Of a DNA stretch of 64,000 bases, positions 7,535 to 58,668 are shown in pieces (position 1 is the first letter of the stretch; each line of letters opens with the position of its first letter). The translations under genes were made by a program, and so were the position numbers. The DNA comes from Priestia megaterium (GTDB taxonomy: Bacteria > Bacillota > Bacilli > Bacillales > Bacillaceae_H), in contig NZ_CP023317.1 of the NCBI RefSeq assembly GCF_009497655.1, forward strand, positions 2,137,501 through 2,201,500. Direction: 5' to 3'. The notes under the pieces are model-generated. The model searched no databases. It worked only from the letters and a program-made list of their open reading frames with translations, and was not told where the DNA came from.

Positions 7535-7541
7535 GAAAAAG

Positions 7542-7575
7542 AAAAAGCAAACGCGCCTTAGCATTTGCTTTTTTT
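7542..7575 (+). terminator. Terminator after the MFS gene
   Basis: A-rich left arm (AAAAAGCAAA) paired with TTTGCTTTTT across a 12-nt loop, followed by T residues. Confidence 0.7.
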
Positions 7576-7664
7576 ATGAGCGTGAAGCAAATTTCAAGAC
7601 GAATTCATATTTTTCTCCTACAATAGATACAATAGAAATTGAAAATCGAAAGGAAGAATCAGCT

Positions 7665-8675
7665 ATGATTAAGCTAAGCGTATTGGATCAGTCTCCAGTT
7701 TCAAGCGGATCAACACCAAAGGAAGCGTTAAAACGTACGGTGGAACTGGCAAAATTAACGGAAAAGTTGGGCTACCACCGCTTTTGGGTAGCGGAACATC
7801 ATAATACGAACGGTCTTGCAGGCTCATCTCCAACTCTTTTAATGACGCACTTAGCTTCTCAAACGAGCCGAATCCGAATTGGATCTGGAGGAGTCCTTCT
7901 TCCTCAATACAGTCCGTATAAAGTAGCAGAAGATGCTCAGCTGCTTGAAAATCTGTTTCCGAACCGAATCGATTTAGGTCTTGGACGCTCACCGGGAGGA
8001 GATGCGCTGACGCGGCTAGCGCTTACAGATGGAGTACGTAAAAGCCTCAATGAATTTCCGCGTCAAATTCAGGCGTTAAAAGGGCATCTTGAGCATAATT
8101 TGCCGTCTGATCATCCGTATTACGGTGTGACAGCTTATCCGTTAAGTGAAACAAAGCCGGAACTGTGGCATCTTGGTATCAATAAAAGAGGAGCAAGATC
8201 AGCTGCTGAGCTGGGCATTTCTTTTACGTTTGGACACTTTATTTATTCAGTTGGTGGACAAGAAGCCATTCGTCATTATAAACAAGAATTTATCCCTTCT
8301 TCGTATCAATCAAAGCCTAAAACCAACGTATGTGTATTTGTTGTATGTGCAGAAACAACAGAAGAAGCCGAGGAGCACGCCAAAACGCTAGATGATTGGC
8401 TGTTGAAAGTAGCCAAAGGCGGAGACACAACGGTTTCATCGATAGAAGAAGTGCGCAATCGTTCTTATTCAGAAGAAGAGCTTAAAAAAATAAGCACCAA
8501 TCGTCCTCGTATGATCGTAGGAAATCCAGCTGAAGTAAAACAAGGATTAACGCAGCTGCAGCAAAAATACGATAACGACGAATTTTTAATTATTACAAAT
8601 ATCCATGATTATGAAGCAAAAAAGAAGTCTTATCAACTGCTTGCAGAGCTATTTCCTCAACCCTCATTTTTCTAA
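7665..8675 (+). CDS. Luciferase-like (LLM class) flavin-dependent oxidoreductase
   Basis: A 336-residue bacterial luciferase-like monooxygenase of the single-chain type seen in Bacillus YwcH/YceB. Family features are the start LSVLDQSPV, YHRFWVAEHHN (about 39-49), IRIGSGGVLLPQYSP (about 72-86) and RIDLGLGRSPGGD (about 105-117), which shape the FMN site. It is predicted to be cytoplasmic and to use reduced FMN. The substrate is unknown. ATG 7665 follows AAAGGAAG. Confidence 0.85.
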   Translation: MIKLSVLDQSPVSSGSTPKEALKRTVELAKLTEKLGYHRFWVAEHHNTNGLAGSSPTLLMTHLASQTSRIRIGSGGVLLPQYSPYKVAEDAQLLENLFPNRIDLGLGRSPGGDALTRLALTDGVRKSLNEFPRQIQALKGHLEHNLPSDHPYYGVTAYPLSETKPELWHLGINKRGARSAAELGISFTFGHFIYSVGGQEAIRHYKQEFIPSSYQSKPKTNVCVFVVCAETTEEAEEHAKTLDDWLLKVAKGGDTTVSSIEEVRNRSYSEEELKKISTNRPRMIVGNPAEVKQGLTQLQQKYDNDEFLIITNIHDYEAKKKSYQLLAELFPQPSFF

Positions 8676-8735
8676 GAAAAAGATGGGGTTTTTTTACGTA
8701 ATTAAATGTTAGAATATTTAAAAAGGAGGAGTGAC

Positions 8736-9365
8736 ATGCAAGTAGAGCAAAAAAGTGTAAGCAGCCAAACTAATAAGATTACCTATACATATATTAAAAC
8801 AGGAGGGCCTCGCATTTGCTTTATGTTTTCAGGGCTAGGCTATACGTACGAAAAGCCCCTGTTGTATTATGTAACGATGCTGATGATAAAACACGGAATT
8901 GACGTGGTTCAGATTCACTATACATATTCAAAAGAGCTGATGACAAAGTCTACAGATGAGATTGCAGACGTTATGATGAAAGACATTTGTTTAGTGCTGC
9001 AGGACGTTTTGCCTCAAAATAGCTATAAAGATATCATATTTGCAGGGAAATCGCTTGGGACCATTCCTCTAATTCAGCGAGTTATGAAAGATGAAGTTTA
9101 CAAAGACGCAGTGATGCTTTTACTGACGCCGCTTTTAACAAGAACAGAACTGTTTGAAAGTTTACTAAAAAGCTCTCACAAAGGTCTTCTTGTAATAGGA
9201 AGTGGTGATCACTATTATACTGAAGAAGTTTATCGATTAAAAACAAATCCAATGAATATTGCAGTCATCGAAAATGCCGATCATTCATTGGATGTTTTGT
9301 ATGCTCCAGCAGAATCGTTAAGGGTGCTGGGAACCGTTTTGGACGGCATAGAACAGCTTCTGTGA
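8736..9365 (+). CDS. Alpha/beta hydrolase of unknown substrate
   Basis: A 209-residue cytoplasmic protein with an alpha/beta-hydrolase core: a strand ending FMFSGLGYTYE, the nucleophile elbow FAGKSLGT (Ser within GKSLG), and late DHY and ENADHSLD segments that can supply the acid and the catalytic His. The fold is clear, but I do not recognise a characterised close relative. ATG 8736 is chosen over the open frame from 8706 because AAAAGGAGGA sits just before it. It is 27 bp upstream of the AraC-type gene and could be co-transcribed with it. Confidence 0.72.
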   Translation: MQVEQKSVSSQTNKITYTYIKTGGPRICFMFSGLGYTYEKPLLYYVTMLMIKHGIDVVQIHYTYSKELMTKSTDEIADVMMKDICLVLQDVLPQNSYKDIIFAGKSLGTIPLIQRVMKDEVYKDAVMLLLTPLLTRTELFESLLKSSHKGLLVIGSGDHYYTEEVYRLKTNPMNIAVIENADHSLDVLYAPAESLRVLGTVLDGIEQLL

Positions 9366-44046: not shown

Positions 44047-44212
44047 TGTTTTAAACGTCCGTTAGCTTTTAAGAGAATTACTTACCCATTAGCGGCTATG
44101 ATGAACGGTTGAACAATTAAAAACCCTATTACGATCGATATCTGCTATACTTTTAATAAAGATAATAACGCTTACATTTATGAAGAAGCAAACAAAAAAG
44201 AGAGGGCATAAG

Positions 44213-46339
44213 GTGAACTTTCCTATTTCGAAAAGTATTACAACTAAATATCTTCTTTTATTTACGGTTATTTTAATTGTACCGGGCATCATCATTTATT
44301 ACATCATTACGGGTTATGCAAGCAAAATTATTAAAGAAGATGTAAAGGTTCAAAACATTGCAAGTAAAGATATTATAGCTAAAAGGCTGAATTCAGAAAT
44401 TGAGCATGTGGCTTCGCAGCTGCAGCTTATTGCAGGAGAGGGGCTAGAGTCAGATCTTAACATAAATAGAATGTATAACCGAGCTAAACAAGCAAATTCA
44501 CAAAGTTCAGTTATTCATTCCATTTACTATATCAATGAACAAAAACGCGTAAAGTTTGAAACGCCTTTTGCTTCAAGTCAAAACAATTTAATTTATCATC
44601 ACCCTAATTTTACCCAGGTGTATTGGACACATACGTACGCTTTATCGGATCTTATTCAAAATTATCGTCATCAAAAAGTAGTAACCATTTCTGTACCCGT
44701 TCTTACTAAGGATAAAGAATTTAAAGGAATTATTGTTGCAGAACTAAGCCGGGATTATTTATCAGAGGTGTTAAAAAGCGTCAGCCTGTCACGAGGACAC
44801 TTCGGTTTTTTAGCAGATCGCAAAGGAAATGTCATCGCATCTACAAGCGATAAGCAGCTTAACAAGAAGTTTTCAGTAGACAAAATACCAAACGTTTCTG
44901 GCTATACTCAAATAAATCATAATGGACAAGAGAGTTTAGCAGCTTATCAAACGAACCAAGAAGGCTGGAACTTGGTTTATGGTGTACCGACTAACGTAGC
45001 CTTTTCTCCTTTACATAAATTATCTCTTTTACTGCGCGTTAGTTTTATTAGTATATTGCTGCTTGCTTTATTTTTTATATGGTTAGGCATCAAAAATATT
45101 TTACAGCCAATCGTAAAGCTTACAAGCTATGCAAAAACGTACCGGAATTCTCAAACGTTCGTGCCATTAAATAAAGAAGCGCCGGCAAGGGATGATGAGC
45201 TGAGTATATTGACACGTACAATTATTGAAATGGGAAATAGCAATTATGAAAAACAAAAAATGCTTGAGCAAAGTGAGAGATACCTTCACGATGTATTAGA
45301 AGGAATTCCTTATGGAATTATTACAATTGACCCGAGGAGTAAAATTACATACGTGAATCAGCAGTTTGAAAGAATGGTTGCTTTTCAGCGTCAGGACATG
45401 ATTGGTGTTAACTTAGAAGATTTACCAATAAAATCGGAAAGCGTAGATTTTATTTTGCTTCACACATTGGCATCGGGAAAAGACATGGAAGAGGTAGAAA
45501 GCTATATTCTCGATTCAGACGGCAGAAAAAGAATTGTTAAAGTTACGACCTCTACTTTTTATACCGACACAAGTGAAGTGATGGGGATTATCGCGGTCAT
45601 GCAAGATATTACCGAAATAAAGCAGTTACAGCTAAGACTGCAGCAAAGTGATAAGCTGGCGTCTATTGGGCAAATTACGGCAGGAATTGCCCACGAAATA
45701 AAGAATCCTCTAGCCATTTTATCAGGATCAGCTGAACTTTTGCTAGATGAAGCGGAAGAAAGCGCCTGCTCAGAAGAAGTAAAAGAGCTTGCTGCGGATG
45801 TATTCATCGTTGTAAACCGTCTCAAAGAGATTACAAATAATTTTCTTAATTTTGCAAACATGAGTCAAAAGAAAAAGAAGGAAGTGTCACTTGTACAAGT
45901 GTTAGAAGAAGTGTTTCATTTACTGCGTTTAAAGTGTAATGAAGCAAACATTAGCATTGTAAAAGACTTTGAGGAAAAATGTTTGATTGCAGGGGTCTAT
46001 GATCAATTGATTCAAGTGTTTTTAAATATTGTCTTAAACGCAATGGAAGCAATGGATGAGGGCGGGTATATTATCGCTTCGATTCAAACGATGAATATGA
46101 ACGAAGAATATGTGGTTGTTCGTATAGAAGATACGGGTTCAGGCATTAACAAGCAGGACTTAGAGTGGCTGTTTAATCCCTTTTACTCAACGAAAGAAAC
46201 AGGTTCAGGACTAGGGTTAACGATTGCAAGAGATATTGTAAAAGAACATGGAGGAGAATTATTTATTGAAAGTATAGAAGGCAAAGGGACAACCATTACA
46301 TGTCGTTTTCCCAAACAGAAAAATACAAAAGGAGGCTAA
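44213..46339 (+). CDS. Sensor histidine kinase (extracellular Cache-type sensor, PAS, HisKA)
   Basis: A 708-residue membrane kinase. It has TM1 at about 12-34, an extracellular Cache-type sensor at about 35-268 with an internal SRGHFGFLADRKGNVIAST block, TM2 at about 270-292, a HAMP-like linker, a PAS domain at about 355-460, a HisKA dimer domain with phospho-acceptor His494 (GIAHEIKNPLAIL) and a HATPase domain with N, G1 and G2 boxes (NAMEAM, EDTGSGI, GSGLGLTI). GTG 44213 follows GAGAGGG; ATG 44180 has no ribosome site. It lies 5 bp upstream of the sigma-54 activator. It probably phosphorylates that activator on sensing an external ligand. Confidence 0.93.
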   Translation: MNFPISKSITTKYLLLFTVILIVPGIIIYYIITGYASKIIKEDVKVQNIASKDIIAKRLNSEIEHVASQLQLIAGEGLESDLNINRMYNRAKQANSQSSVIHSIYYINEQKRVKFETPFASSQNNLIYHHPNFTQVYWTHTYALSDLIQNYRHQKVVTISVPVLTKDKEFKGIIVAELSRDYLSEVLKSVSLSRGHFGFLADRKGNVIASTSDKQLNKKFSVDKIPNVSGYTQINHNGQESLAAYQTNQEGWNLVYGVPTNVAFSPLHKLSLLLRVSFISILLLALFFIWLGIKNILQPIVKLTSYAKTYRNSQTFVPLNKEAPARDDELSILTRTIIEMGNSNYEKQKMLEQSERYLHDVLEGIPYGIITIDPRSKITYVNQQFERMVAFQRQDMIGVNLEDLPIKSESVDFILLHTLASGKDMEEVESYILDSDGRKRIVKVTTSTFYTDTSEVMGIIAVMQDITEIKQLQLRLQQSDKLASIGQITAGIAHEIKNPLAILSGSAELLLDEAEESACSEEVKELAADVFIVVNRLKEITNNFLNFANMSQKKKKEVSLVQVLEEVFHLLRLKCNEANISIVKDFEEKCLIAGVYDQLIQVFLNIVLNAMEAMDEGGYIIASIQTMNMNEEYVVVRIEDTGSGINKQDLEWLFNPFYSTKETGSGLGLTIARDIVKEHGGELFIESIEGKGTTITCRFPKQKNTKGG

Positions 46340-46344
46340 AAAAC

Positions 46345-47691
46345 ATGGAGAATAAGTGCAGTGTGTTAATGATTGATGATGAACAGAACCTTTGTAAGCT
46401 GGTAGCCAAAAAGCTTCAGAAATCTGGTTTTCATACGCACGCGGCATATACTGGAGGAAAAGGAATCGAAATGGCTAAAACGCTGGATATCGATGTGGTG
46501 ATACTAGATTATATGCTTCCGGATATGACGGGGATCGATGTGTTAAAGAAGTTAAAAGAGGTAACGCAATCAAAAGTAATCATGCTTACTGCATACGGAA
46601 ATGTTGAGAGCGCTGTGCAATCTATGAAAATAGGGGCTGCTGATTATTTGAATAAGCCTGTTGAACTTGAAGAACTAAAGAATATTATTGCTTCGCTATG
46701 TACGGACAAGCAACCGGATGCCGTGATGGAAAAAGGTAAAGACAAAGACTTTATTTCAAAAAGCTCAGAAATGAACAAGTTAGTGGAAATGGTAGAGTAC
46801 GTAAAAGATACAGACGCTAGCATTTTAATTCTAGGTGAAAGCGGAGTAGGTAAAACCGCGATGGCTAAATGGATACATGAGCAGAGTCATAGAAAAAACA
46901 GTCCTTTTGTGGCTATCAACTGCGCAGCCATACCAGAAGCCCTTCTTGAAAGTGAACTGTTTGGCTATAGAAAAGGAGCGTTTACAGGGGCTGCTTCTTC
47001 TCAAAAAGGAAAGTTTTCTGCTGCGGACGGCGGTACAATCTTTTTAGATGAAATTGGAGAAATTTCGTTAAGCATGCAGGCAAAGCTATTGCATGTAATC
47101 GAAGAAAAAAAAGTAATGCAGCTCGGAAGCAACGAGTATGAATCCTTGGACGTCCGAATTATTTCAGCTACAAATAAACCGCTTCAACAGTTAGTAGAAC
47201 AAAAGAAATTTCGGGAAGATTTATACTATCGATTAAATTTAATGGAGATCACCATTCCTCCTCTAAGGCACCGAAAAGAAGATATTGAGCCGCTCATTCA
47301 TCACCACATTATAAAGTTAAATACAAAATACAATAAGACGCTTACTGTTTCAAACGCGGCACTTCAACAGCTAATTTCTTATGAGTGGCCGGGAAATATT
47401 CGTGAGCTGTTAAATGCGATTGAAAGAGTTCATATTTTAAAACGGTATGGGACAATTGAGCTCTCTGATTTAACATATCTTTTTAATAAGCAAGAGTCTC
47501 ATTCATATAGGAATCAGCAGGTGAAAGCAAAACAAACAAACTTATCACATGCATTAGGTGAAGTAGAGGAAGAAATGATTAAAAACGCTCTTGAAGAAAT
47601 GAAAGGCAATCAAACGAAAGCAGCTCAAAAACTAGGAATTGCTCGCCATACGTTAATTTATAAAATGAAAAAAATGGGTCTTAAATTTTAG
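46345..47691 (+). CDS. Sigma-54-dependent response regulator (NtrC family)
   Basis: A 448-residue enhancer-binding activator. The receiver domain (about 4-118) has Asp55 as phosphorylation site (VVILDYMLPD) and Lys in LNKPVE. The AAA+ domain (about 138-370) has Walker A GESGVGKT at 164-171, the sigma-54 contact loop GAFTGA at 211-216, and the arginine-finger segment EDLYYRLN. The C-terminal Fis-type helix-turn-helix (about 410-445) reads NQTKAAQKLGIARHTLIYKMKKMG. It follows the kinase by 5 bp (GGAGG site). It should activate sigma-54 promoters from upstream sites; the only strong candidate in this window is 1.4 kb downstream. Confidence 0.95.
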   Translation: MENKCSVLMIDDEQNLCKLVAKKLQKSGFHTHAAYTGGKGIEMAKTLDIDVVILDYMLPDMTGIDVLKKLKEVTQSKVIMLTAYGNVESAVQSMKIGAADYLNKPVELEELKNIIASLCTDKQPDAVMEKGKDKDFISKSSEMNKLVEMVEYVKDTDASILILGESGVGKTAMAKWIHEQSHRKNSPFVAINCAAIPEALLESELFGYRKGAFTGAASSQKGKFSAADGGTIFLDEIGEISLSMQAKLLHVIEEKKVMQLGSNEYESLDVRIISATNKPLQQLVEQKKFREDLYYRLNLMEITIPPLRHRKEDIEPLIHHHIIKLNTKYNKTLTVSNAALQQLISYEWPGNIRELLNAIERVHILKRYGTIELSDLTYLFNKQESHSYRNQQVKAKQTNLSHALGEVEEEMIKNALEEMKGNQTKAAQKLGIARHTLIYKMKKMGLKF

Positions 47692-47700
47692 AAAAAGGAT

Positions 47701-48645
47701 ATGAAAGAAATGACCTATCGTAAAATATTCAGCTTACTAGTACTGTGTTTTACAGTACTGGGAGCATGTCAGCAGCACAGTACTACCCCTCTTAGGGAAG
47801 AAAAGAAGTCTCTCGATTCTGTTAGTATTACAGTTGGGTCGAAATCTATGACAGAGCAATATCTACTAATGAAAATGACCGCGCTTCTATTAAAAGAACA
47901 AGGAGCTACTGTACACGAAAGGCGCTTTTTAGACAGCGATTCTATTCGAAAAGCAAGCTTGGCGGGCTATATTGATATGTACTGGGAATATACGAGTACG
48001 GCAAGGATTGTGCATCAAAACCAAGAGCCGGTTTATAATGAAAAAAAGTTGTATCAGCTGGTGAAAGAAACGGATGCGAAAAACCACTTAACGTGGCTGA
48101 ACACTAGCCATTTTAACAGCAGCTGGGGGGTTTTAGTTAACCGTTCTTTTGCAAAGGAGCATCATTTAAACTCTGTTTCTGACTTGATTTCCTACATAAA
48201 AAAGCAAAATAAAGAAGTAAAGATAGCTACAAACAATGAATTTCTAAAAAGAAAAGACGGCTTGATGCAATTAGCTAATAACTATGAGTTAAAGTCCGTT
48301 TCAACTGAAATCATTGGAATCGATTCAGAAATTATTCCTTTGGCGGTGAAAGAAGGCAGAGTAGACGTAGGGATTGGAATGATATCTGATAGTCGAATTC
48401 AAGCATACGACCTTGTGTTACTAAAGGAAGATCAATCTCTTTTTCCGCCTTATTATGCGGCTCCTGTAGTAAAACAATCATTAGCAAGCCGTTATCCGTC
48501 TGTTGTTTCCACTTTAAATGAACTATCAAGTAAACTAACGAATAAAAAGATGGTAGAGCTGAATTACCAAGTTGATATTTTACACAAAGACGTATCAGAT
48601 GTTGCCTATAAATTTTTACTGGAAAATCACTTGATTACTCGTTGA
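47701..48645 (+). CDS. Orphan betaine/choline-type substrate-binding lipoprotein
   Basis: A 314-residue lipoprotein of the OpuAC/OpuCC-type (QAT) binding protein family. The lipobox LGAC is followed by QQHS, then SITVGSKSMTEQYLLMKMTALLL, GYIDMYWEYTSTA and SHFNSSWGVLVNRSFAKEH, all typical of the family. No ABC permease or ATPase gene is next to it. It starts 9 bp after the response regulator, so it belongs to the regulatory operon. ATG 47710 is an alternative start with a better spacing. It may deliver ligand to the kinase sensor; that is inference. Confidence 0.85.
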   Translation: MKEMTYRKIFSLLVLCFTVLGACQQHSTTPLREEKKSLDSVSITVGSKSMTEQYLLMKMTALLLKEQGATVHERRFLDSDSIRKASLAGYIDMYWEYTSTARIVHQNQEPVYNEKKLYQLVKETDAKNHLTWLNTSHFNSSWGVLVNRSFAKEHHLNSVSDLISYIKKQNKEVKIATNNEFLKRKDGLMQLANNYELKSVSTEIIGIDSEIIPLAVKEGRVDVGIGMISDSRIQAYDLVLLKEDQSLFPPYYAAPVVKQSLASRYPSVVSTLNELSSKLTNKKMVELNYQVDILHKDVSDVAYKFLLENHLITR

Positions 48646-48653
48646 TAGATATA

Positions 48654-48999
48654 ATAAAAAAAGAGGCTGGGACAAAAGTAGTTGAGCCCAAGTAAAAAAC
48701 GAACCATTCATCAACCTGTTTGATGAGTGGTTCGTTTTTTTTGTGATGGTGCATATCGTTTTATTTGTTTCGTTGCTTCTAGCAGTTGATTTGGAGGGCA
48801 AGGCGAAGACTCCTGCGGGAAAAGCGGAACAGGTGAGACCCCGCAGGAGCGAAAGCGACGAGGAGGCTCAGCGGCCGCCCGCGGAAAGCGAAGTCTTGCA
48901 CGGAAATCAATTGCGGTGTCATAAGCAGTCCAGCTCATGTATCTCATTTGTTCGTCTTTCAATTGGATTTATTTCGTTATGTCTCAACCTCTTTTTTAT
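48654..48999. repeat. Long intergenic repeat, copy 2 (MITE-like)
   Basis: About 346 bp, differing from copy 1 at roughly twenty positions. It has the same terminator at its left end, GC-rich core with CTCCTGCGGG/CCCGCAGGAG, and inverted-repeat ends (AAAAAAAGAGGCTGGGACA; complement of the right end AAAAAAGAGGTTGAGACA). It lies between the binding-protein gene and the upstream activator sites of the sigma-54 operon. The protein frames through it are not plausible genes. Confidence 0.85.
48700..48742 (+). terminator. Terminator inside repeat copy 2, ending the regulatory operon
   Basis: A 13-bp stem (48700-48712 with 48722-48734) followed by eight T's, 55 bp after the binding-protein gene. It separates the regulatory operon from the catabolic one. 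Confidence 0.85.
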
Positions 49000-49006
49000 T
49001 GTAGAG

Positions 49007-49023
49007 TGTAGAAAATTTCTACA
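49007..49023. promoter_or_regulatory. Upstream activator site 1
   Basis: A perfect palindrome, TGTAGAAAATTTCTACA, 8 bp after the repeat and about 83 bp from the -24 element. Its position and symmetry fit a binding site for the NtrC-type activator. Confidence 0.7.
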
Positions 49024-49029
49024 GTTAAT

Positions 49030-49046
49030 TGTGTGAATTTTCTACA
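49030..49046. promoter_or_regulatory. Upstream activator site 2
   Basis: TGTGTGAATTTTCTACA keeps one full half-site (TTTCTACA) and the outer TGT of site 1. Its centre is 23 bp from site 1, about two helical turns, as usual for paired enhancer sites. Confidence 0.65.
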
Positions 49047-49095
49047 ATTTATTTTTTGTTTTCTATTAAGTATTGATTACATCAATCATTTAAAC

Positions 49096-49112
49096 TTGGC
49101 ACGCATCTTGCA
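49096..49112 (+). promoter_or_regulatory. Sigma-54 (-24/-12) promoter
   Basis: TTGGCACGCATCTTGCA matches the sigma-54 consensus TGGCAC-N5-TTGCA exactly, with GG at 49098-49099 and GC at 49110-49111 at the required 12-bp offset. The start codon of the first operon gene is about 50 bp downstream, behind an AAGGAG site. Confidence 0.95.
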
Positions 49113-49163
49113 ATAGATATAAGTGAAAGTAAAAATGCTGAAATGTAAGGAGATTAGTATTCA

Positions 49164-50309
49164 ATGAAAATTACGGGAATAGAGATCAAACATTATTTAC
49201 TGCCTTTAAATCCGCCTTTTAAAGCAGCTTGGGACCCCGAGCCCCGCAAGAAGTTTGCTTCTACCGTTGTCTATGTACATACGGATGAAGGAATAACGGG
49301 AGTGGGATCAGGAGATTTAATGATGGGGCTTGAGGGACATGAACATTTGTTTATCGGTCAAGATCCTTTTGCCATTGAACGACATGCACAAGTGATACAA
49401 AATATAGATTTTCACTATGGAAGATGCTGGCCGCTTGATTTAGCTCTATGGGATTTGATGGGAAAAGCAACAAAACAGCCCGTCTATAAACTGCTTGGAG
49501 CCCGATCTAACAAGCTTCTCGCTTATGCTTCAACGGGAGAAATCGTGACTCCTGAAGAACGTGCGGAACGTGCGGTTCGATTTGTAGAGCAAGGGTTCAA
49601 AGCAATGAAAATTCGTTTTCATCACAAAGATGTAAAAGACGATATTCAAGTAGTGGAAGCGGTCAGAAAAGCAGTTGGCGACAAGCTAGAAATTATGGTT
49701 GACGCAAATCAAGGATGGAAAATGCCTTGGGACGTTGAACGGACGTGGGATTTAAAAATGGCCTATCAAGTAGCGAAAGAACTTGAAGAGCTGAAAGTTT
49801 TTTGGCTTGAAGAACCACTGCCTTCTCATCAGTTTGAACTGATGGCAAAACTTCGGGACTCAGTAGGTATTCGAATCGCAGGGGGAGAGATGAACCGTCA
49901 TATGCATGACTTTAGAGAGTTGAACAAAGTAAATGCATTAGACGTCTATCAGCCGGATGTAGCATTGTCAGGAGGAATTACGCAAACGAAAAAAGTTGCG
50001 GATCTTGTTCAAGGAAGCGGCGCTTGGTTCAGCCCGCATACATGGACAAACGGCATTGGTTTACTGGCAAATTTACATCTAGCAGCGGCGGTCAGCCACT
50101 GTCCGTATTTAGAATTTCCTTATGATCCTCCGGCATGGTCTAACGAACGGAGAGATTATATTCAGCAAAAACCACTTATGATCGACAAAGATGGTTACTT
50201 AGTAGCTCCAGAACAGCCGGGTTTAGGTATCGATTTGGATGAAGAAGCTTTAAAGCAGTACGAAATTAATCATTTCTACGTGGGTGAAAAAAATACAGTT
50301 TCTATTTAA
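49164..50309 (+). CDS. Enolase-superfamily enzyme (mandelate racemase subgroup)
   Basis: A 381-residue mandelate racemase/muconate-lactonizing family enzyme. Metal ligands are Asp180 (MVDANQGW), the EEP pair Glu216/Glu217 (FWLEEPL) and Glu242 (GGEMNRH). Bases are Lys149 (KIR, a KxR form) and the His-Asp dyad Asp265 (YQPDVALSGG) and His292 (SPHTWTNG), which places it in the mandelate racemase subgroup. The chemistry is proton abstraction next to a carboxylate: an epimerisation or a dehydration. The substrate is unknown. First gene of the sigma-54 operon. Confidence 0.9.
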   Translation: MKITGIEIKHYLLPLNPPFKAAWDPEPRKKFASTVVYVHTDEGITGVGSGDLMMGLEGHEHLFIGQDPFAIERHAQVIQNIDFHYGRCWPLDLALWDLMGKATKQPVYKLLGARSNKLLAYASTGEIVTPEERAERAVRFVEQGFKAMKIRFHHKDVKDDIQVVEAVRKAVGDKLEIMVDANQGWKMPWDVERTWDLKMAYQVAKELEELKVFWLEEPLPSHQFELMAKLRDSVGIRIAGGEMNRHMHDFRELNKVNALDVYQPDVALSGGITQTKKVADLVQGSGAWFSPHTWTNGIGLLANLHLAAAVSHCPYLEFPYDPPAWSNERRDYIQQKPLMIDKDGYLVAPEQPGLGIDLDEEALKQYEINHFYVGEKNTVSI

Positions 50310-50332
50310 CTGATATAAAGGGTGAACACAAA

Positions 50333-51766
50333 ATGAAGAAATATAGTGCTTATATAAACGGAGAATTTGTTCAAAGCAGCAATCAAATGAATGTTACGTA
50401 CCCAGGAACGGGTGAAGTCGTAGCCCAAGTCTCTTCCTGCAGTATAGAAGAAACAGAGCACGCTGTTTATTGCGCTAAACAAGCTTTTAAAGAGTGGAAG
50501 CTTCGTCCTTCATATGACCGGTCTGAACAAATTAAAAAATTTTTAACAAACATGAAAACAGAAGAACATATTGAACGCATTGGAACAGCTATTACACAGG
50601 AAATGGGAAAACCTTTAAATGCAGCGAAATCAGAGGTGTTTTACGGAGCGGAGCTTGGCGAATACCAAACTCAGTGGGCAAGACGCATTGAAGGTCACGT
50701 AGTAGACAGCGATAACGTAAAAGAAAAGATTATTTCTTATAAAGAGCCTCTTGGCGTAGTCGCGGTGATTGTACCTTGGAATTTTCCAATTTATGTTTTG
50801 ATGAGAAAAATCGTGCCGGCGCTTGTCGCAGGTAATACGGTTGTAGTCAAGCCAAGCGTAAAATCTTCTTTATCTGCTTTAGCATTAGCGGAGTGCATTC
50901 ATCAATCCGGCTTTCCAAAAGGTGTTATTAATATCGTAACAGGTATGGATGACATTGTAGGAGAAACGTTAACTTCATCTCCTGATGTGAACATGGTGAC
51001 ATTTACCGGAAGTACTAAAGTAGGCAAAGGCATTATGGAAAAATGCTCTCGTCATATGATCCGGACATCGCTTGAATTAGGCGGAAAAGCTCCTGCTATT
51101 GTAATGGAAGATGCCGATATTGATTTAGCGGTTGAAGCAATTAAGGGAGGCAGGTTAGCTAACTCCGGTCAAGTCTGCAATAATACTGAGCGTGTATACG
51201 TTCATAAAAGTGTAAAAGAAGCGTTTACTACTAAACTATTGAAAGCGTTTCAAAATGTAGAAGTGAAAGATGGTTTGGCTAATCCAGATGCAGAAATGAG
51301 CTGTCTGATTAACAAATCTGAAGCAAATCGCGTTCATCAAATGGTACTTGAGGCCGCAGAAGAAGGAGCCGCTATATTATGCGGAGGCTATTTGCTAGAG
51401 GAATTAGGTGACAGCTTTTATCCGCCAACGCTATTAGATCAGTGCACGCAACAAATGAACATCGTGCAAAAAGAAGTGTTTGGACCCGTTCTTCCAATTA
51501 TCTCGTTTGAATCTCTTGAAGAAGCAATTGATCTAGCGAACGATTCTGAATACGGCTTAACCGCTAATGTATATACATCCAGCTATCGCTACGTAATGGA
51601 GCTGACTACGCAGCTAGAATGCGGTGAAGTATACGTGAACCGCCAGCAGGGCGAGGCGTATCAAGGCTATCACTCCGGATGGAAGCAGTCGGGAATCGGC
51701 GGAGACGATGGCAAGCATGGATTTGAAGAGTTTTTACAGGTAAAAACAGTTTATATGAAATTTTAA
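50333..51766 (+). CDS. NAD(P)-dependent aldehyde dehydrogenase 1
   Basis: A 477-residue aldehyde dehydrogenase, closest in look to lactaldehyde/glycolaldehyde dehydrogenases. PWNFPIY (Rossmann start), GSTKVGKGIMEKC, the general base in LELGGKAP and catalytic Cys282 in GQVCNNTE are present, and so is EVFGPVLPIISF near the C-terminus. It oxidises an aldehyde to an acid in the cytoplasm. The second gene of the operon, 23 bp after the enolase-family gene. Confidence 0.92.
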   Translation: MKKYSAYINGEFVQSSNQMNVTYPGTGEVVAQVSSCSIEETEHAVYCAKQAFKEWKLRPSYDRSEQIKKFLTNMKTEEHIERIGTAITQEMGKPLNAAKSEVFYGAELGEYQTQWARRIEGHVVDSDNVKEKIISYKEPLGVVAVIVPWNFPIYVLMRKIVPALVAGNTVVVKPSVKSSLSALALAECIHQSGFPKGVINIVTGMDDIVGETLTSSPDVNMVTFTGSTKVGKGIMEKCSRHMIRTSLELGGKAPAIVMEDADIDLAVEAIKGGRLANSGQVCNNTERVYVHKSVKEAFTTKLLKAFQNVEVKDGLANPDAEMSCLINKSEANRVHQMVLEAAEEGAAILCGGYLLEELGDSFYPPTLLDQCTQQMNIVQKEVFGPVLPIISFESLEEAIDLANDSEYGLTANVYTSSYRYVMELTTQLECGEVYVNRQQGEAYQGYHSGWKQSGIGGDDGKHGFEEFLQVKTVYMKF

Positions 51767-51789
51767 TTTTAAAAAGCAGGTGAACACAG

Positions 51790-53118
51790 GTGGAGAAAAC
51801 GCGTGTGGAAGAAGATAGTGTAGGAAAAGTTGAGCTCCCAGCAGAGGTTTTGTATGGCATTCAGACGGCCCGGACAATTGAAAATTTATCATTTTCTAAT
51901 AAAAGATTGCATGAATATCCGGACTACGTGTATGCACTGTTAACCGTAAAAAAAGCAGCTGCCTTAACAAATGTAGAAGCTAGCGTAATTCCAAAAGACA
52001 TTGGAGAATCCATATCAAATGCATGTGACCAATTGCAAAGCACTGCTTATCAACATCATTTTTTGATTGATGTGCTGCACGGCGGAGGCGGTATTGGGAC
52101 GAATATGAATGTGAACGAAGTAATAGCAGGCTGGATAAACCAGCAGTGGCCACATCATCTTCCCGTTCATCCGATTGAACATGTAAATGCATCTCAATCA
52201 ACTTCTGATGTTTGTCATACCGCTATTCGAATTGCGATTATTAAAAGCTATCATTTTTTAGAAAAAGAAATGGAGCATCTCCATTCTATTCTTCAAAAAA
52301 AGATTGAAGAGTTCCAGCCTGTGATGACAATCGCAAGGACTTGCTTGCAAGATGCGATGAGTATTTCGCTTAGTAATATATTCAGCGGATATGAAGCGGT
52401 TTTTTCACGGCGTACGCACTATTTAAAAAGAGCTGCAGAAGAACTGCACGCTGTTAATCTTGGAGGTACGGTTATTGGCTCTGGGACGGGAGCATCAGAA
52501 ATATACCGAAGTAAAGTCGTTCAGCAGCTGTCTCGTCTATCTGGTATGGGGCTTTACCACCGCGCTAATTTATTTGATGCAGCACAAAATATTGATGATT
52601 TAGCTAATGTTTCGAACGAATTAAAACAGCTGGCTACATCTTTTATAAAATTTGCTAAAGATTTAAGACTGCTGTCTTCCGGACCAGAAGCTGGCTTTGG
52701 AGAAATTCAATTGCCGTCTGTTCAAGCAGGTTCCTCATTTTTTCCGGGCAAAGTCAACCCGGTTGTACCAGAAACGTTGATTCAATGCTGTTTTCAAGTG
52801 TTAGGGTGTGACAGAACCGTTCAAGCTGCCCTTGAACATGGAGAATTGAATTTAAATGTATTTGAAGGAGCTGCTGGAATTAATATTTTAGACAGCATTC
52901 AGTTTTTAACAAAAGCTGTAAGGAATTTTGCGACTTTTTGTGTGCAAGATTTATCAGCTAATTCAGAGCGCTGTCAGCAGCTTTCTCAATCGTTTATTCC
53001 ATTGATTGTAGAAATGAAAGAAAAGCATGGCTACAGCCGCGTTGCAGATCGTTTAAAAAAGACAGGATATGAAGGACTCAAAAAATGGAGGGAACGTGAA
53101 TATGACAAAACTAAATGA
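51790..53118 (+). CDS. Aspartase/fumarase-superfamily lyase
   Basis: A 442-residue lyase. The family start VEEDSVGKVELPAEVLYGIQTARTIEN resembles AspA/FumC. HVNASQSTSDVCHTAIRIA and the catalytic-loop signature GSSFFPGKVNPVVPE at about 314 are present. Phe replaces the usual Met at position five of that signature. This superfamily eliminates ammonia, water or an amine from a dicarboxylate-like substrate, and a member (ergothionase) releases trimethylamine. GTG 51790 follows AGGTG. The gene overlaps the next by 17 bp. An amine-lyase role here is inference. Confidence 0.87.
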   Translation: MEKTRVEEDSVGKVELPAEVLYGIQTARTIENLSFSNKRLHEYPDYVYALLTVKKAAALTNVEASVIPKDIGESISNACDQLQSTAYQHHFLIDVLHGGGGIGTNMNVNEVIAGWINQQWPHHLPVHPIEHVNASQSTSDVCHTAIRIAIIKSYHFLEKEMEHLHSILQKKIEEFQPVMTIARTCLQDAMSISLSNIFSGYEAVFSRRTHYLKRAAEELHAVNLGGTVIGSGTGASEIYRSKVVQQLSRLSGMGLYHRANLFDAAQNIDDLANVSNELKQLATSFIKFAKDLRLLSSGPEAGFGEIQLPSVQAGSSFFPGKVNPVVPETLIQCCFQVLGCDRTVQAALEHGELNLNVFEGAAGINILDSIQFLTKAVRNFATFCVQDLSANSERCQQLSQSFIPLIVEMKEKHGYSRVADRLKKTGYEGLKKWREREYDKTK

Positions 53119-54628
53119 AAAAACCTTATTTAAAGGAATGGAACAACCTGCATTGGTATGGGCAAAAGAGTGGCTGAAAGAGCCTAAAAAACTATACATC
53201 AACGGCAAGTGGCAAGAGAGTTCAAGCGGCGAATTAATAGATTCTATTAACCCTGCAAACGGAGAAATTAATGGTCAAATTCAAAGTGCAGCAAAACAAG
53301 ATATCGATGAAGCAGTAGCCTCAGCTAGACACGCGTTTGACCACGGTCCTTGGCCAAGCGTTACAAGAAAAGAACGCGCGCGAATCTTAAGAGAAATAAG
53401 CAGCTTAATTAAAAAACATCAGGCAGAGCTCGCCACATTAGAGTCTCTTGATAACGGCAAGCTTTATACAGAATCATACCATGATGATGTGCAAGAAGCG
53501 TCCGATTTATTTGAGTATTACGCTGGCTGGACGGATAAATATTACGGTGAAAATAATCCGGTGGAAGGAGATTTTGTGAGTTATACAACCCGCGATCCGA
53601 TCGGTGTATGCGGTCAAATTGTACCATTTAACTTTCCAATCGATATGGCCGCATGGAAACTAGCGCCGGCTCTAGCAATGGGGAACACCGTTATTTTAAA
53701 GCCGTCTAGCACCACATCTTTTTCTGCGATTCGCTTGGTAGAAATCATCGATGAAGCAAACATCTTACCGCCAGGTGTTTTAAATTTAATTCTAGGAAAA
53801 GGATCGATTGGTTCTCATATCAGCCGTCATATGGGAGTTGATAAAGTATCTTTTACTGGAAGCACAGGAGTAGGCAAACAATTGGTTCACGATTCTGCTG
53901 ACTCTAATTTAAAGCCTGTCACGCTTGAGCTTGGAGGGAAATCACCTAATATTATCTTTAGCGATGCACCGGATTTGAATGAAGCGATTGAACGTTCTTT
54001 TTACGGCTTGTTTACACATAAAGGAGAAAAATGCTCAGCGCCTACGCGCTTGTTAGTACAGCGTGACATTTATAAGCAAGTAGTTGATAAGCTAGCAGAT
54101 TATGCAAATAGCTACAAGTGCGGCAACCCTTTTGATCCTGATTCAAATCAAGGAGCTCAAGTCTCTGAATCTCATATGCAGTCAATCTTGCACTATATCG
54201 AGAGTGGCATACGTGAAGGAGCTACGCTAGCAGCGGGCGGCGAGCGCGATATGAGCGGAGATAATAAGCACGGGTATTTTATCCGTCCTACTATTTTTGC
54301 AGATGTTGATAATAAGATGACTATTGCACAAGAAGAAATTTTTGGCCCTGTCCTGTGTGTGATTCCATTTGATACAGAAGATGAAGCGGTGCAAATTGCG
54401 AATGATACGATTTATGGTTTAGCAGCTGGACTCTGGACAAAAGATGTATCAAGAGCCAATCGTGTAGCAAAAAAGCTAGAAGCAGGCATGGTTTTTATCA
54501 ATAAATACGGCTGCTATGATTTTGCTAGCCCGTTTGGAGGATGGAAACAAAGCGGATGGGGGAAAGAATATGCGATTCATTCTCTTCAATCTTACACAAA
54601 AGTAAAAGCAATATGGATGGCTTATTAA
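53102..54628 (+). CDS. NAD(P)-dependent aldehyde dehydrogenase 2
   Basis: A 508-residue aldehyde dehydrogenase of the betaine-aldehyde/phenylacetaldehyde type. VPFNFPID (cofactor strand), SFTGSTGVGKQLV, LELGGKSPNII with the general base and catalytic Cys311 in GEKCSAPTR are visible. It has about 25 extra residues at the N-terminus (start at ATG 53102, GGAGG site inside the upstream gene). The second aldehyde oxidation enzyme of the operon, different from the first by sequence. Confidence 0.92.
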   Translation: MTKLNEKTLFKGMEQPALVWAKEWLKEPKKLYINGKWQESSSGELIDSINPANGEINGQIQSAAKQDIDEAVASARHAFDHGPWPSVTRKERARILREISSLIKKHQAELATLESLDNGKLYTESYHDDVQEASDLFEYYAGWTDKYYGENNPVEGDFVSYTTRDPIGVCGQIVPFNFPIDMAAWKLAPALAMGNTVILKPSSTTSFSAIRLVEIIDEANILPPGVLNLILGKGSIGSHISRHMGVDKVSFTGSTGVGKQLVHDSADSNLKPVTLELGGKSPNIIFSDAPDLNEAIERSFYGLFTHKGEKCSAPTRLLVQRDIYKQVVDKLADYANSYKCGNPFDPDSNQGAQVSESHMQSILHYIESGIREGATLAAGGERDMSGDNKHGYFIRPTIFADVDNKMTIAQEEIFGPVLCVIPFDTEDEAVQIANDTIYGLAAGLWTKDVSRANRVAKKLEAGMVFINKYGCYDFASPFGGWKQSGWGKEYAIHSLQSYTKVKAIWMAY

Positions 54629-54649
54629 ATTAAAAAGCTGGAGGAAAGT

Positions 54650-55819
54650 ATGATGAAGATGAAAGCAGCGGTCATGACGGGCGTTAATGCGCCTCTTGAA
54701 ATTTTAGCGGTGGATTTAGCAGCACCAAAAGCCAATGAAGTACTTGTGAAAATAGAAGCAACGGGCGTGTGTCATAGTGATTTAAATGCTTTGGAAGATC
54801 CTTCTACACCAACGCCTACTATTTTAGGACACGAAGGTGCAGGTATTGTAACGGCAGTCGGTTTGAATGTAAAAACGGTAAAAGTAGGAGATAAAGTAGC
54901 GCTTAGCTGGGTTCCTTACTGCGGCACGTGTGAGTTTTGTGTGACGGGGGCCGTACATCTGTGTGATTCAGCTTTTGGTCCGATGTTTAACGGAACGCTG
55001 TTAGACGGTACCTCTCGATTAAGCAAAGATGGAGAGCTGGTTTTTCACAACTCGCTGCTTTCCACTTTTGCTGAATATGCGGTGGTGCCGGAAATGTCTT
55101 GTATTAAGCTTCCTGATGAGATGCCGATGGCTCAAGCCTCTTTAATTGGATGCGGTGTAGCGACGGGGTACGGAGCAGCTGTAAACGCAGCCAAAGTTAC
55201 GCCGGGTTCTACCGTAGCCGTCTTTGGCATCGGAGGAGTAGGCATTAACGCCATTCAAGGGGCTCGGATTGCAGGAGCGAGCAAAATTATTGCATGCGAT
55301 GTAAAACCAGCTAATTTGGAACTTGCTAAAACATTCGGAGCTACTCATACGATAAATGTAGCTTCAGAAGAAGCAAGTGAAGCTTTAAAAGCTTTAACAG
55401 GAGGCCACGGCGTCCATTTCGCGATTGACTGCTCGGGTCATACAAAAGCTACTGAATCTGCTTGGAATGGAACGAGAAAAGGAGGCACGGTAGTTGTAGT
55501 AGGAGCCTTTAACCCATCCATGTCTATCAGTTTACCAGGCGGAGGGTTTCATCGTGTCGGCAAAATATTGAAAGGAAGCTTTTACGGAGACACGCAGCCG
55601 TTTCGTGATTTCCCTAAAATTGCTCAGCTTTATTTAGACGGAAAATTTATGTTAGACGAACTGATTCTTGGGCGCATGCAGCTTGACGATATTAACGAAG
55701 CTTTTCAATCATTTCACGATTGTAATTGTGTAAACGTAGGCCGGTCAGTAATCGAATTTCCATCAATTGCATCTCAAGATTCGTTAGAAAACGGAGATGA
55801 ATTTGACATCGTTTCATAA
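54650..55819 (+). CDS. Zinc-dependent alcohol dehydrogenase
   Basis: A 389-residue medium-chain dehydrogenase, in the class III/NDMA-dependent-like group. Catalytic zinc ligands lie in GVCHSDLNALED and GHEGAG, and the structural zinc Cys cluster in CGTCEFCVTGAVHLC. The NAD-binding motif is VFGIGGVGINA. A C-terminal 20-residue extension is present. It would oxidise an alcohol (or reduce an aldehyde) in the pathway. GGAGG lies five bases before the ATG. Confidence 0.9.
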   Translation: MMKMKAAVMTGVNAPLEILAVDLAAPKANEVLVKIEATGVCHSDLNALEDPSTPTPTILGHEGAGIVTAVGLNVKTVKVGDKVALSWVPYCGTCEFCVTGAVHLCDSAFGPMFNGTLLDGTSRLSKDGELVFHNSLLSTFAEYAVVPEMSCIKLPDEMPMAQASLIGCGVATGYGAAVNAAKVTPGSTVAVFGIGGVGINAIQGARIAGASKIIACDVKPANLELAKTFGATHTINVASEEASEALKALTGGHGVHFAIDCSGHTKATESAWNGTRKGGTVVVVGAFNPSMSISLPGGGFHRVGKILKGSFYGDTQPFRDFPKIAQLYLDGKFMLDELILGRMQLDDINEAFQSFHDCNCVNVGRSVIEFPSIASQDSLENGDEFDIVS

Positions 55820-55848
55820 TGTAAATGAGCTAAGAAAGGGGAAAAACA

Positions 55849-57036
55849 ATGAATTCAGTATTTGAATTTACAACAAAAACAAGCATAGCGTATGGAGTAG
55901 ACCGAGCTTTGCAAATTGGAAAAGATGTTGAAGCAGTGAGCGGGGAAAAAAGAGCCGTGTTAGTGACGGATCCAGGGGTAATAAAAGTTGGTTTAGCAGA
56001 CATTGCATTGAAAGCGCTTCAAAATAATGGTGTAGAAACGTTCGTTTTTCATGATGTGAAAAGTGATCCTACGGCCGCTTCAATAGATGCTGCTGCACAG
56101 CTTATTCGTGAACAACAGATAAAGTGCGTCATTGGTCTTGGAGGCGGTTCAGCTATGGACGTGGCTAAAATGGCTGCGCTAGTTGCAGGTGATCAGTATG
56201 AAACGATGCATTATGCTCTCATGGCGAACCCTTTTGCGAAAAAGAAAGTGAAAACGATTATGCTTCCCACTACTTCCGGTACAGGAGCAGAAGTCACGAG
56301 CACGGTTGTCTTCTCTACACATAATCAAGTCAAGGTGTGGGCGTGGGATCAAGATATGGCACCGGAACTAGCGATACTAGAACCGCGATTTACTACAAAA
56401 CTGCCGGATTTCTTGACAGCTGCCACTACGTTAGATGCGCTTGTACATGCAATTGAAGCATGCACAGGCAAGCGTACGAACCCTTTTATTCAAGCGCTGA
56501 GCCTTCAAGCGATTTCATTAGTGAGTCAAAATTTAGAAACAGCTCTGCAACAACCTGAAAACTTAGAGGCAAGAGGAAACCTCGCGATAGCGGCAACGCT
56601 TGCAGGAATGGCAATCGAACAAGGAGGAACGGGGCTTGCACACTGCATAGGACACGCCTTGGGAACAGTCGGGAAAATCCATCACGGCCGTGCGGTTTCA
56701 ATTGCCTTGCACGCTGTGTACGACTGGAATACTGAAGGTGCAGTGGAACTGTATGCAGACGTAGCAAGAGCTTTGGGAGTAAAAGAAACATTTTCAACGA
56801 AGGAAGAGCTTGCTTATGCAGGGGCAGAAGAATTTAAGCGTCTAGTGGCTGTAAGTGGATTAAACCTTGCGATTGGAGAGGGGCATGAACCGGCTGTGAA
56901 CATCTCTGACTTTGTGGACGTGATGCTTTCAGTTGAAAATGAACCGATGAGAGTAAATAATGCACGTTTTGCCAGTGAAGATGATTTACAGCAGTTTGCA
57001 CATGCAATTATGAGCGTAGGAGCGTCGAAAGTTTGA
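55849..57036 (+). CDS. Iron-containing alcohol dehydrogenase
   Basis: A 395-residue group III (Fe-dependent) alcohol dehydrogenase. GLGGGSAMDVAKMAAL near residue 95 is the NAD-binding motif. PTTSGTGAEVTSTVVF, TTLDALVHAIEACTGK, and the metal-binding His residues in LAHCIGHALG and HHGRAVSIALH are all present. Members include GbsB choline dehydrogenase and 1,3-propanediol or 3-hydroxypropionate dehydrogenases, so the substrate stays open. AAAGGGG precedes the ATG. Confidence 0.92.
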   Translation: MNSVFEFTTKTSIAYGVDRALQIGKDVEAVSGEKRAVLVTDPGVIKVGLADIALKALQNNGVETFVFHDVKSDPTAASIDAAAQLIREQQIKCVIGLGGGSAMDVAKMAALVAGDQYETMHYALMANPFAKKKVKTIMLPTTSGTGAEVTSTVVFSTHNQVKVWAWDQDMAPELAILEPRFTTKLPDFLTAATTLDALVHAIEACTGKRTNPFIQALSLQAISLVSQNLETALQQPENLEARGNLAIAATLAGMAIEQGGTGLAHCIGHALGTVGKIHHGRAVSIALHAVYDWNTEGAVELYADVARALGVKETFSTKEELAYAGAEEFKRLVAVSGLNLAIGEGHEPAVNISDFVDVMLSVENEPMRVNNARFASEDDLQQFAHAIMSVGASKV

Positions 57037-57043
57037 TAGAAGC

Positions 57044-57070
57044 ACATACCGTTTCCAAGAAGCGGTATGT
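57044..57070 (+). other. Intercistronic hairpin without T-run
   Basis: ACATACCG at 57044-57051 pairs with CGGTATGT at 57063-57070 across an 11-nt loop, in the 66-bp gap before the transporter gene. Without a T-tract it is more likely an mRNA processing or stability element than a terminator. Confidence 0.55.
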
Positions 57071-57102
57071 ACCATCTCATTAATTAGGCAGGAGGAAGCG
57101 TA

Positions 57103-58668
57103 ATGAAAAAGATCAGACATGCTGTATTTTGGCCTCCATTTTTATTGTTAATTGGAGCTGCATTACTAAGTTTTACAAACCGTGAAACATTTACTACAGT
57201 TACAACTAATGCAAATAATTGGGTTATTTCCAATCTAGGCTGGCTGTTTAGCATTAGCGGGCTGCTGATGGTAATTGCATGCATTGGTGTTTATTTTTCA
57301 CCGCTTGGCAATGTTAAAATAGGAGGACCTGATGCAAAACCCATTCTTAAATTTGGCAACTGGTTTGCGATTACCTTATGTACAACAATAGCTGCAGGCG
57401 TTACGTTTTGGGGGATTGTGGAACCGATTTACCATGTATCTGCACCTCCTGAATCGTTAGGAATTAAACCGAATTCTCCAGAAGCAGCCATTTTCTCTAT
57501 GTCTTCTATGTATCTTCACTGGACCATTTCGCCATATGCAATTTATTGCGTACCTGCAATTGTATTTGCATTTGCTTATTACAATATGAAAAAACCGTTC
57601 AGTCTAGGGTCTACGCTAGCTCCGATTTTAGGGGATAAAATTAACGGGAAAACAGGAAAAGTAATTGATGCAGTATGTTTGTACACTCTTGCTCTTGGAA
57701 TGGCCTCTTCTCTTGGAACGAGTGTTTTAAATTTAGCAGGAGGCGTTAATCATTTGAGCGGTATTGCCAGCAACCCTTTACTGTGGGCGATTATAACGGC
57801 TGCCGTTACCATTACCTTTATTTTATCCGCATCAAGCGGCTTAATGAAAGGAATTAGAATTTTATCAGATATTAATATGAAAGCATTCTATGGAATTGCC
57901 ATCTTTATCTTTATTGTAGGACCAAGCTCTTATATTTTAAATTTAGGAACGGAATCGGCGGGTAATTATTTTACTCATTTTTTTGAAAAAAGTTTATTTA
58001 CAGGAGCGGCAGCAGGTGATACGTGGCCGCAGTCATGGACTACTTTTTATTGGGCAAGCTGGTTTTCATGGGCCGCTATCACCGCATTATTTTTAGGAAG
58101 AATTGCATATGGATATAAAGTGAAAACGATGATTCTTGTTAACTTTATTTTACCAGCCTTTTTTGGAGGCGTATGGATGACGATATTTGGCGGAACATCG
58201 ATTCATATGCAAATGACAGGAGGGGAACTCGCAGATATTATGGCACAAAACGGGCCTGAAGCCGTTTTGTATGCAGTATTTGCTGCTTTACCATTTGCGA
58301 AATTTGTTATTCCGTTCTACTTGTTTATCGTGTTCATTTCCTTCGTTACAGCCGCGGATTCTAACATGGAAGCGATGGGCGGAATCAGTTCATCGGGGAT
58401 TTCTCCTCAAAGTCCGTCTCCGGGCATTATGATTAAAGTAGTATGGGGTGTGACCGTAAGTTTGGTAGGATGGGTAATGATTAGTTTTGCAAAGCTAGAC
58501 GGAATTAAAATGTTAGCCAATCTAGGAGGAGTTCCTGCACTGTTTTTAGGTATAGGTGTTCTTATTGCGTTAGTCAAAATTGCTCAAAATCCAGCCAAAT
58601 ACGATCGAACTACAAAGGTAGATAAAAATGCTGCGATTAAAGAAGCGGATGAAACAAAAGCTGTATAA
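57103..58668 (+). CDS. BCCT-family transporter
   Basis: A 521-residue secondary transporter of the betaine/carnitine/choline family, with twelve predicted helices. The TM4 region reads MYLHWTISPYAIY and TM8 reads FYWASWFSWAAITALFLGRIAYG, where BetP/BetT-type proteins have YWAWWISW-like aromatic boxes. One Trp is Ser here and a usual Trp near HWT is replaced by Pro. Substrate may thus differ from glycine betaine or choline. Last gene of the operon, with GGAGG site and own terminator. Confidence 0.92.
   Translation: MKKIRHAVFWPPFLLLIGAALLSFTNRETFTTVTTNANNWVISNLGWLFSISGLLMVIACIGVYFSPLGNVKIGGPDAKPILKFGNWFAITLCTTIAAGVTFWGIVEPIYHVSAPPESLGIKPNSPEAAIFSMSSMYLHWTISPYAIYCVPAIVFAFAYYNMKKPFSLGSTLAPILGDKINGKTGKVIDAVCLYTLALGMASSLGTSVLNLAGGVNHLSGIASNPLLWAIITAAVTITFILSASSGLMKGIRILSDINMKAFYGIAIFIFIVGPSSYILNLGTESAGNYFTHFFEKSLFTGAAAGDTWPQSWTTFYWASWFSWAAITALFLGRIAYGYKVKTMILVNFILPAFFGGVWMTIFGGTSIHMQMTGGELADIMAQNGPEAVLYAVFAALPFAKFVIPFYLFIVFISFVTAADSNMEAMGGISSSGISPQSPSPGIMIKVVWGVTVSLVGWVMISFAKLDGIKMLANLGGVPALFLGIGVLIALVKIAQNPAKYDRTTKVDKNAAIKEADETKAV

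Follow-up and report, generated by a model that had tools for sequence, protein, structure and literature searches.

A sigma-54 promoter with paired 17-bp palindromes predicted to link a two-component system to a catabolic operon in Priestia megaterium

The window, a stretch of 64,000 nucleotides of the Priestia megaterium genome that was analyzed as a whole, contains genes for a sensor histidine kinase (HK), an NtrC-type response regulator (RR), and an OpuAC-type lipoprotein (SBP). These genes are followed by two palindromes, a sigma-54 promoter, and a catabolic operon of seven genes at 49164-58668 in the order ENO-ALDH-LYA-ALDH-ADH-FeADH-BCCT (Table 1). Although the open reading frame of the response regulator begins at 46300, its conserved start, MENKCS, is found at 46345. 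The NtrC-type gene had been described as adjacent to the promoter in an earlier reading made from the sequence alone (the sequence-only reading). It is a neighboring gene but not an immediately adjacent one, with the lipoprotein gene, a terminator, and a repeat element in between. The repeat is present in at least 40 genomic copies at 93-100% identity.

Table 1. Genes, predicted sites, and other features of the locus (window coordinates)
Feature	Coordinates	Strand	Basis or remark
Sensor histidine kinase: dCache_1 extracytoplasmic domain, PAS, HisKA, HATPase_c	44180..46339	+	Pfam; orthologues adjoin RR in other loci
NtrC-type (group I) response regulator: receiver, AAA+ with GAFTGA, Fis-type HTH	46345..47691	+	Pfam, alignment
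OpuAC-type lipoprotein (lipobox LGAC), quaternary-amine-binding fold	47701..48645	+	Pfam
Intrinsic terminator (strong)	48695..48739	+	Splits regulator operon from catabolic operon
GC-rich intergenic repeat element, 121 bp	48785..48905		Between terminator and operators
Activator operator 1 (predicted), TGTAGAAAATTTCTACA = TGTAGAAA-A-TTTCTACA	49007..49023		Perfect 17-bp palindrome
Activator operator 2 (predicted), TGTGTGAATTTTCTACA	49030..49046		13/16 defined positions match operator 1
Sigma-54 promoter, TTGGCACGCATCTTGCA (-24/-12)	49096..49112	+	Exact consensus; conserved in orthologous promoters
Predicted transcription start	49123	+	About 12 nt after -12 GC, inferred from sigma-54 promoter geometry
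Enolase-superfamily (MR/MLE) enzyme	49164..50309	+	First operon gene
Aldehyde dehydrogenase 1	50333..51766	+	
Aspartase/fumarase-superfamily lyase	51790..53118	+	
Aldehyde dehydrogenase 2	53069..54628	+	Nearest: betaine-aldehyde dehydrogenase model (below its cutoff)
Zinc alcohol dehydrogenase	54650..55819	+	
Iron alcohol dehydrogenase	55849..57036	+	Nearest: GbsB model (below its cutoff)
BCCT-family transporter	57103..58668	+	

In the response regulator, the receiver domain (PF00072) was located at residues 22-130, and D11, D12, D55, and K104 were invariant, thereby indicating that the phosphoacceptor aspartate is present. The sigma-54-interacting AAA+ domain (PF00158) scored 236 bits, with the GAFTGA loop present in the alignment, and the Fis-type HTH (PF02954) was found at 419-458. 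AtoC was the best NCBIfam model for this protein; the scores against AtoC (399 bits, cutoff 714), PrdR (361 bits, cutoff 795), and NtrC (357 bits, cutoff 559) were all below the equivalog cutoffs. The cognate histidine kinase gene adjoined the regulator gene in all loci bearing the latter. The host genome contains about a dozen strong sigma-54 activator genes and encodes sigma-54 itself in two rpoN (PF04552) genes (G000 C1:884255 and C1:4788471). More than one rpoN match was also observed in the genomes of loci L025, L033, and L034.

The sequence-only reading had reported an exact sigma-54 consensus preceded by a perfect 17-bp palindrome and a half-conserved copy of it, and all of these elements were found at the positions it had given. 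The pattern TGGCACN5TTGCW, with the -24 GG and the -12 GC, was exact at 49097-49112, and the full word TTGGCAC-GCATC-TTGCA spans 49096-49112. The two operators are 23 bp apart, start to start. From their centers (49015 and 49038) to the first T of TTGGCAC downstream, the distance is 81 and 58 bp, respectively, so the previously given distance of 70 to 90 bp is only approximate; relative to the predicted start near 49123, the centers lie at about -108 and -85. The exact palindrome TGTAGAAAATTTCTACA occurs once in the 5.24-Mb genome. Palindromy or the sequence alone is weak evidence for an operator, because three perfect 17-bp palindromes are present within the 64-kb window and 0.85 matches to the palindrome with at most three mismatches are expected per shuffled window. 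Genome-wide, 19 exact consensus TGGCACN5TTGCW sites were found, several of them in unlike context. An intergenic RNA hairpin in place of a DNA operator was ruled out on geometry, because one base is too short a loop to close an 8-bp stem. In addition, an extra TGTAGAG half-site at 49000-49006 abuts operator 1, and just ahead of the -24 element, ATTGATTACATCAAT at 49072-49086 forms an imperfect palindrome that is not conserved in L025.

Next, we examined the conservation of this arrangement in 34 enolase-encoding loci. Other genomes of the same family were unusable as a comparison set, with the enolase gene in 0 of 15. Many loci of Bacillaceae and Paenibacillaceae had the HK-RR-SBP trio beside the operon; others lacked it. 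In all loci with a GAFTGA- or GSFTGA-bearing regulator (L025, L026, L033, L034, L040-L042, L049, L050, L052, L103, and L114), the SBP gene was followed by a sigma-54 promoter, which in turn was preceded by paired 17-bp dyads 22-24 bp apart. The Peribacillus locus L025 carries TGTAGGAATTTTCTACA and TGTAGAAAATTTCTACA, plus a third full dyad 18 bp upstream of the pair. At the 19 enolase loci without an adjacent regulator, the sigma-54 score was no higher than 10/13 within 400 bp of the enolase gene, and the same limit held within 400 bp at five Cohnella loci whose regulator has no GAFTGA motif. The dyads were found only at loci with an adjacent orthologous regulator gene and were absent at operon copies without a neighboring regulator; as the loci are mutually related, they should not be counted as independent events. 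When the regulator alignment was used in a class-level search, L103 came up as one new locus with every part of the arrangement, whereas L102 from the same search was left out of the regulator-bearing count because its regulator frame holds a stop. In L102, two tandem sigma-54 promoters that fit the pattern lie at 7400-8740, each with a window-type dyad pair, and the in-frame stop of the regulator is a TGA. L101 is a repeat of L041. L104-L110 were set aside as a paralogous NtrC-type group with a different TGTAAA/TTTACA-like word. The regulators of this group (L104-L108, and L109 and L110) have the recognition helix SRQ/KQ with TGTAAA/TTTACA-type dyads, and in L104-L108 the regulator gene is immediately followed by a consensus sigma-54 promoter.

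The palindromic word had also been proposed as a search motif for further targets. We scanned 397 genomes with the pattern TGTAGNANNNTNNNACAN{3,9}TGTNNNANNNTNNNACA, alongside a reversed control. Three genomes matched, compared to zero in the control, and the three matches were the window, an L025-type locus, and L114, all at this promoter type. L114 was unknown beforehand and showed the same HK-RR-SBP-promoter-operon order, with identities of 49% (HK), 57% (RR), 47% (SBP), and 55% (lyase). Its promoter, TTGGCACAATCCTTGCA, is located between the SBP and LYA genes, and the site centers are 58 and 82 bp upstream. The L114 gene set consists of a lyase, an aldehyde dehydrogenase, an alcohol dehydrogenase, and a transporter, without an enolase gene; thus, the enolase is accessory in L114. 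At the level of sequence, the proposed motif was thus confirmed blind, by retrieval of a locus that carries the same regulator. The suggested scan for additional targets was therefore productive in another genome, but in the host genome the motif marked only this promoter. The best match within 250 bp upstream of the other consensus sigma-54 sites of the genome was 12/16, and no two-mismatch palindrome in the same genome coincided with an exact consensus sigma-54 site. A wider regulon in the host genome was unsupported, as no operator-like sites were seen at the other exact sigma-54 promoters. Because the motif marks only this promoter in its own genome, the predicted regulon consists of one operon.

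The distance from the center of the proximal dyad to the first T of TTGGC was 47-48, 58-59, or 69-71 bp across loci, and these classes are steps of approximately one helical turn. With near-copies collapsed and a period range chosen post hoc, a fraction of 5e-5 of random placements showed such clustering. These one-turn steps between species make enhancer phasing testable with natural promoters. The half-sites also varied with the recognition helix of the regulator. TGT half-sites were found in 34 of 36 cases for regulators with an RHT(A)L helix, and TGC half-sites, often paired with a TGTAAA half, in 18 of 28 for those with an RNT/RNA helix. This covariation of operator and helix is hard to explain otherwise and suggests that the regulator reads the dyads. 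The proposal that the neighboring NtrC-type activator binds the palindromes is supported by the co-occurrence of orthologues, the absence of the dyads without the regulator, and the helix covariation.

Altogether, 49007-49112 is very probably the enhancer and sigma-54 promoter of the catabolic operon under the control of a dedicated two-component system, as indicated by the sites, the promoter, the co-occurring regulator, the conserved geometry, the specificity of the motif, and the operator differences between helix classes, all taken from sequence and its comparison. The mechanism would be ordinary, a sigma-54 enhancer under two-component control, and the system itself has apparently not been described before. 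Alternatively, the palindromes could be bound by another factor, a repressor or a CcpA-like global regulator, with the NtrC-type regulator acting elsewhere or from solution. The palindromes are generic operator shapes, and cre-like words were noticed by eye nearby in some Paenibacillus and Cohnella relatives; however, a separate factor would hardly account for dyads that are present only beside the orthologous regulator gene, stand in constant register with the sigma-54 promoter, vary with the recognition helix of that regulator, and were returned by the motif-only scan at such loci only, and we consider this explanation improbable. There is an equally small likelihood that the regulator also, or mainly, represses through the site pair, for example in its unphosphorylated form, as some NtrC-family proteins, such as Caulobacter NtrC, both repress and activate (PMC10274813). 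However, the two sites are 58 and 81 bp away from the -24 element, on its upstream side, do not extend into the promoter, and overlap with no recognizable sigma-A promoter of the window. Accidental matches in AT-rich DNA between genes, a reading for which the numbers of perfect palindromes in the window and consensus sites in the genome could speak, are refuted to near certainty: about a dozen loci in Bacillaceae and Paenibacillaceae conserve the paired sites together with the promoter, and the paired motif at the observed spacing arose in 0 of 300 Markov-resampled upstream sequences, for this promoter and nearly all others.

The function of the system was then considered from the protein families. 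The operon probably serves the catabolism of a quaternary ammonium compound, choline- or betaine-like, because the fold of the binding protein is combined with a BCCT or OpuC-like transporter and betaine-aldehyde-dehydrogenase-like enzymes. In some of the relatives' operons, an OpuC-like ABC transporter takes the place of the BCCT transporter. No permease or ATPase gene was seen beside the OpuAC-type lipoprotein gene, and the family assignments point to the lipoprotein as the probable ligand-sensing partner of the kinase. A PDB search for relatives of the enolase returned no chain at E 1e-40, so no substrate was obtained from solved structures, and a literature search for a name of the system found no paper. 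Under the enhancer model, an external quaternary-ammonium-type ligand would be sensed by the lipoprotein together with the dCache kinase, which would in turn phosphorylate the NtrC-type regulator. Regulator dimers on both 17-bp dyads would assemble into an AAA+ oligomer, and through DNA looping the GAFTGA loops would contact RNA polymerase-sigma-54 at the promoter and lead to the open complex, so that transcription from the predicted start would switch on the operon. Another sigma-54 activator gene (PAS, GSFTGA) was observed 4-10 kb past the end of the window (L088, 4290-8401), followed by TGGCATGCATTTTGCA and by genes for an agmatinase-like ureohydrolase and an aldehyde dehydrogenase; this is a probable second sigma-54 catabolic unit nearby.

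The regulator shares with NtrC/NtrB at glnA and other group I activators (AtoC, ZraR, and DctD) the order of receiver, AAA+ (GAFTGA), and Fis HTH, with the cognate kinase alongside, and the 17-bp tandem dyads located some 60-110 bp upstream of a -24/-12 promoter. It differs from them in its operator word, TGTAGAAA-N-TTTCTACA, and in the associated OpuAC lipoprotein. The dyads of enteric glnA are spaced by about 32 bp, compared to 22-24 bp here. As in Bacillus GbsAB/OpuC, the locus encodes betaine-aldehyde-dehydrogenase-like and GbsB-like enzymes, an OpuAC-fold binding protein, and a BCCT or OpuC-like transporter, although all scores here were below the named equivalog cutoffs; in contrast to that system, an enolase-superfamily enzyme and an aspartase-like lyase are present, with control by sigma-54. 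The sigma-54 regulons of Clostridiales likewise include Firmicute activators with a Fis-type HTH and upstream activating sequence motifs from comparative genomics; only approximately 10% of those activators are two-component regulators, and the main text of that study mentions neither betaine nor palindromes (PMC6615313). Two-component sigma-54 activators of Bacilli seem to be little studied in the literature found. On the present comparison, this activator would now be linked to a defined operator, whose pairs are spaced by 22-24 bp, to a defined target operon, and to a likely class of ligand.

The layout is conserved in several bacterial genera beside the same sensor genes, and one genus, Cohnella, has apparently rewired it. 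In five loci of this genus (L030, L031, L032, L056, and L057), twelve residues including the GAFTGA loop are deleted from the regulator. All five regulators also read GNISEL in place of the sensor-II motif GNIREL, with loss of the arginine, and four of them lack the second arginine of RxDLYYR. These regulators form one derived clade nested among GAFTGA-bearing relatives (support 100/100). The rpoN gene was absent from four of the five Cohnella genomes, the fifth having one, and no sigma-54 promoter was found ahead of the operon in the five loci. The paired dyads are kept (TGCGCATTTTTTTTACA-CCTTTT-TGCCTAATGTTTGCGCA, 23 bp apart) and are followed by a conserved CATAAT, which implies a start that places the dyad centers at about -77 and -54. 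The parsimonious reading is an apparent switch to sigma-A control, in which the sigma-A step is itself predicted. This would likely represent a natural promoter conversion, in which the activator lost GAFTGA and other ATPase residues, the target lost its -24/-12 elements, and four of the five genomes lost rpoN, with the operators retained by a sigma-A-type -10 and approximately four helical turns closer to the start. Activation of sigma-A promoters by an NtrC lacking GAFTGA was reported for Rhodobacter capsulatus and argued for Caulobacter (PMC10274813), and the Cohnella loci resemble these cases in having regulators without the L1 loop and promoters without a sigma-54 element. Unlike in those NtrCs, the loss in Cohnella accompanies the loss of rpoN in four of the five genomes, the ancestral paired operators persist beside CATAAT, and the regulator and pathway are different ones. 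If this reading is true, the same regulator-operator pair would work by two activation mechanisms in sister genera, and the Cohnella orthologues would provide a natural before-and-after pair for the change of a sigma-54 circuit into a sigma-A circuit.
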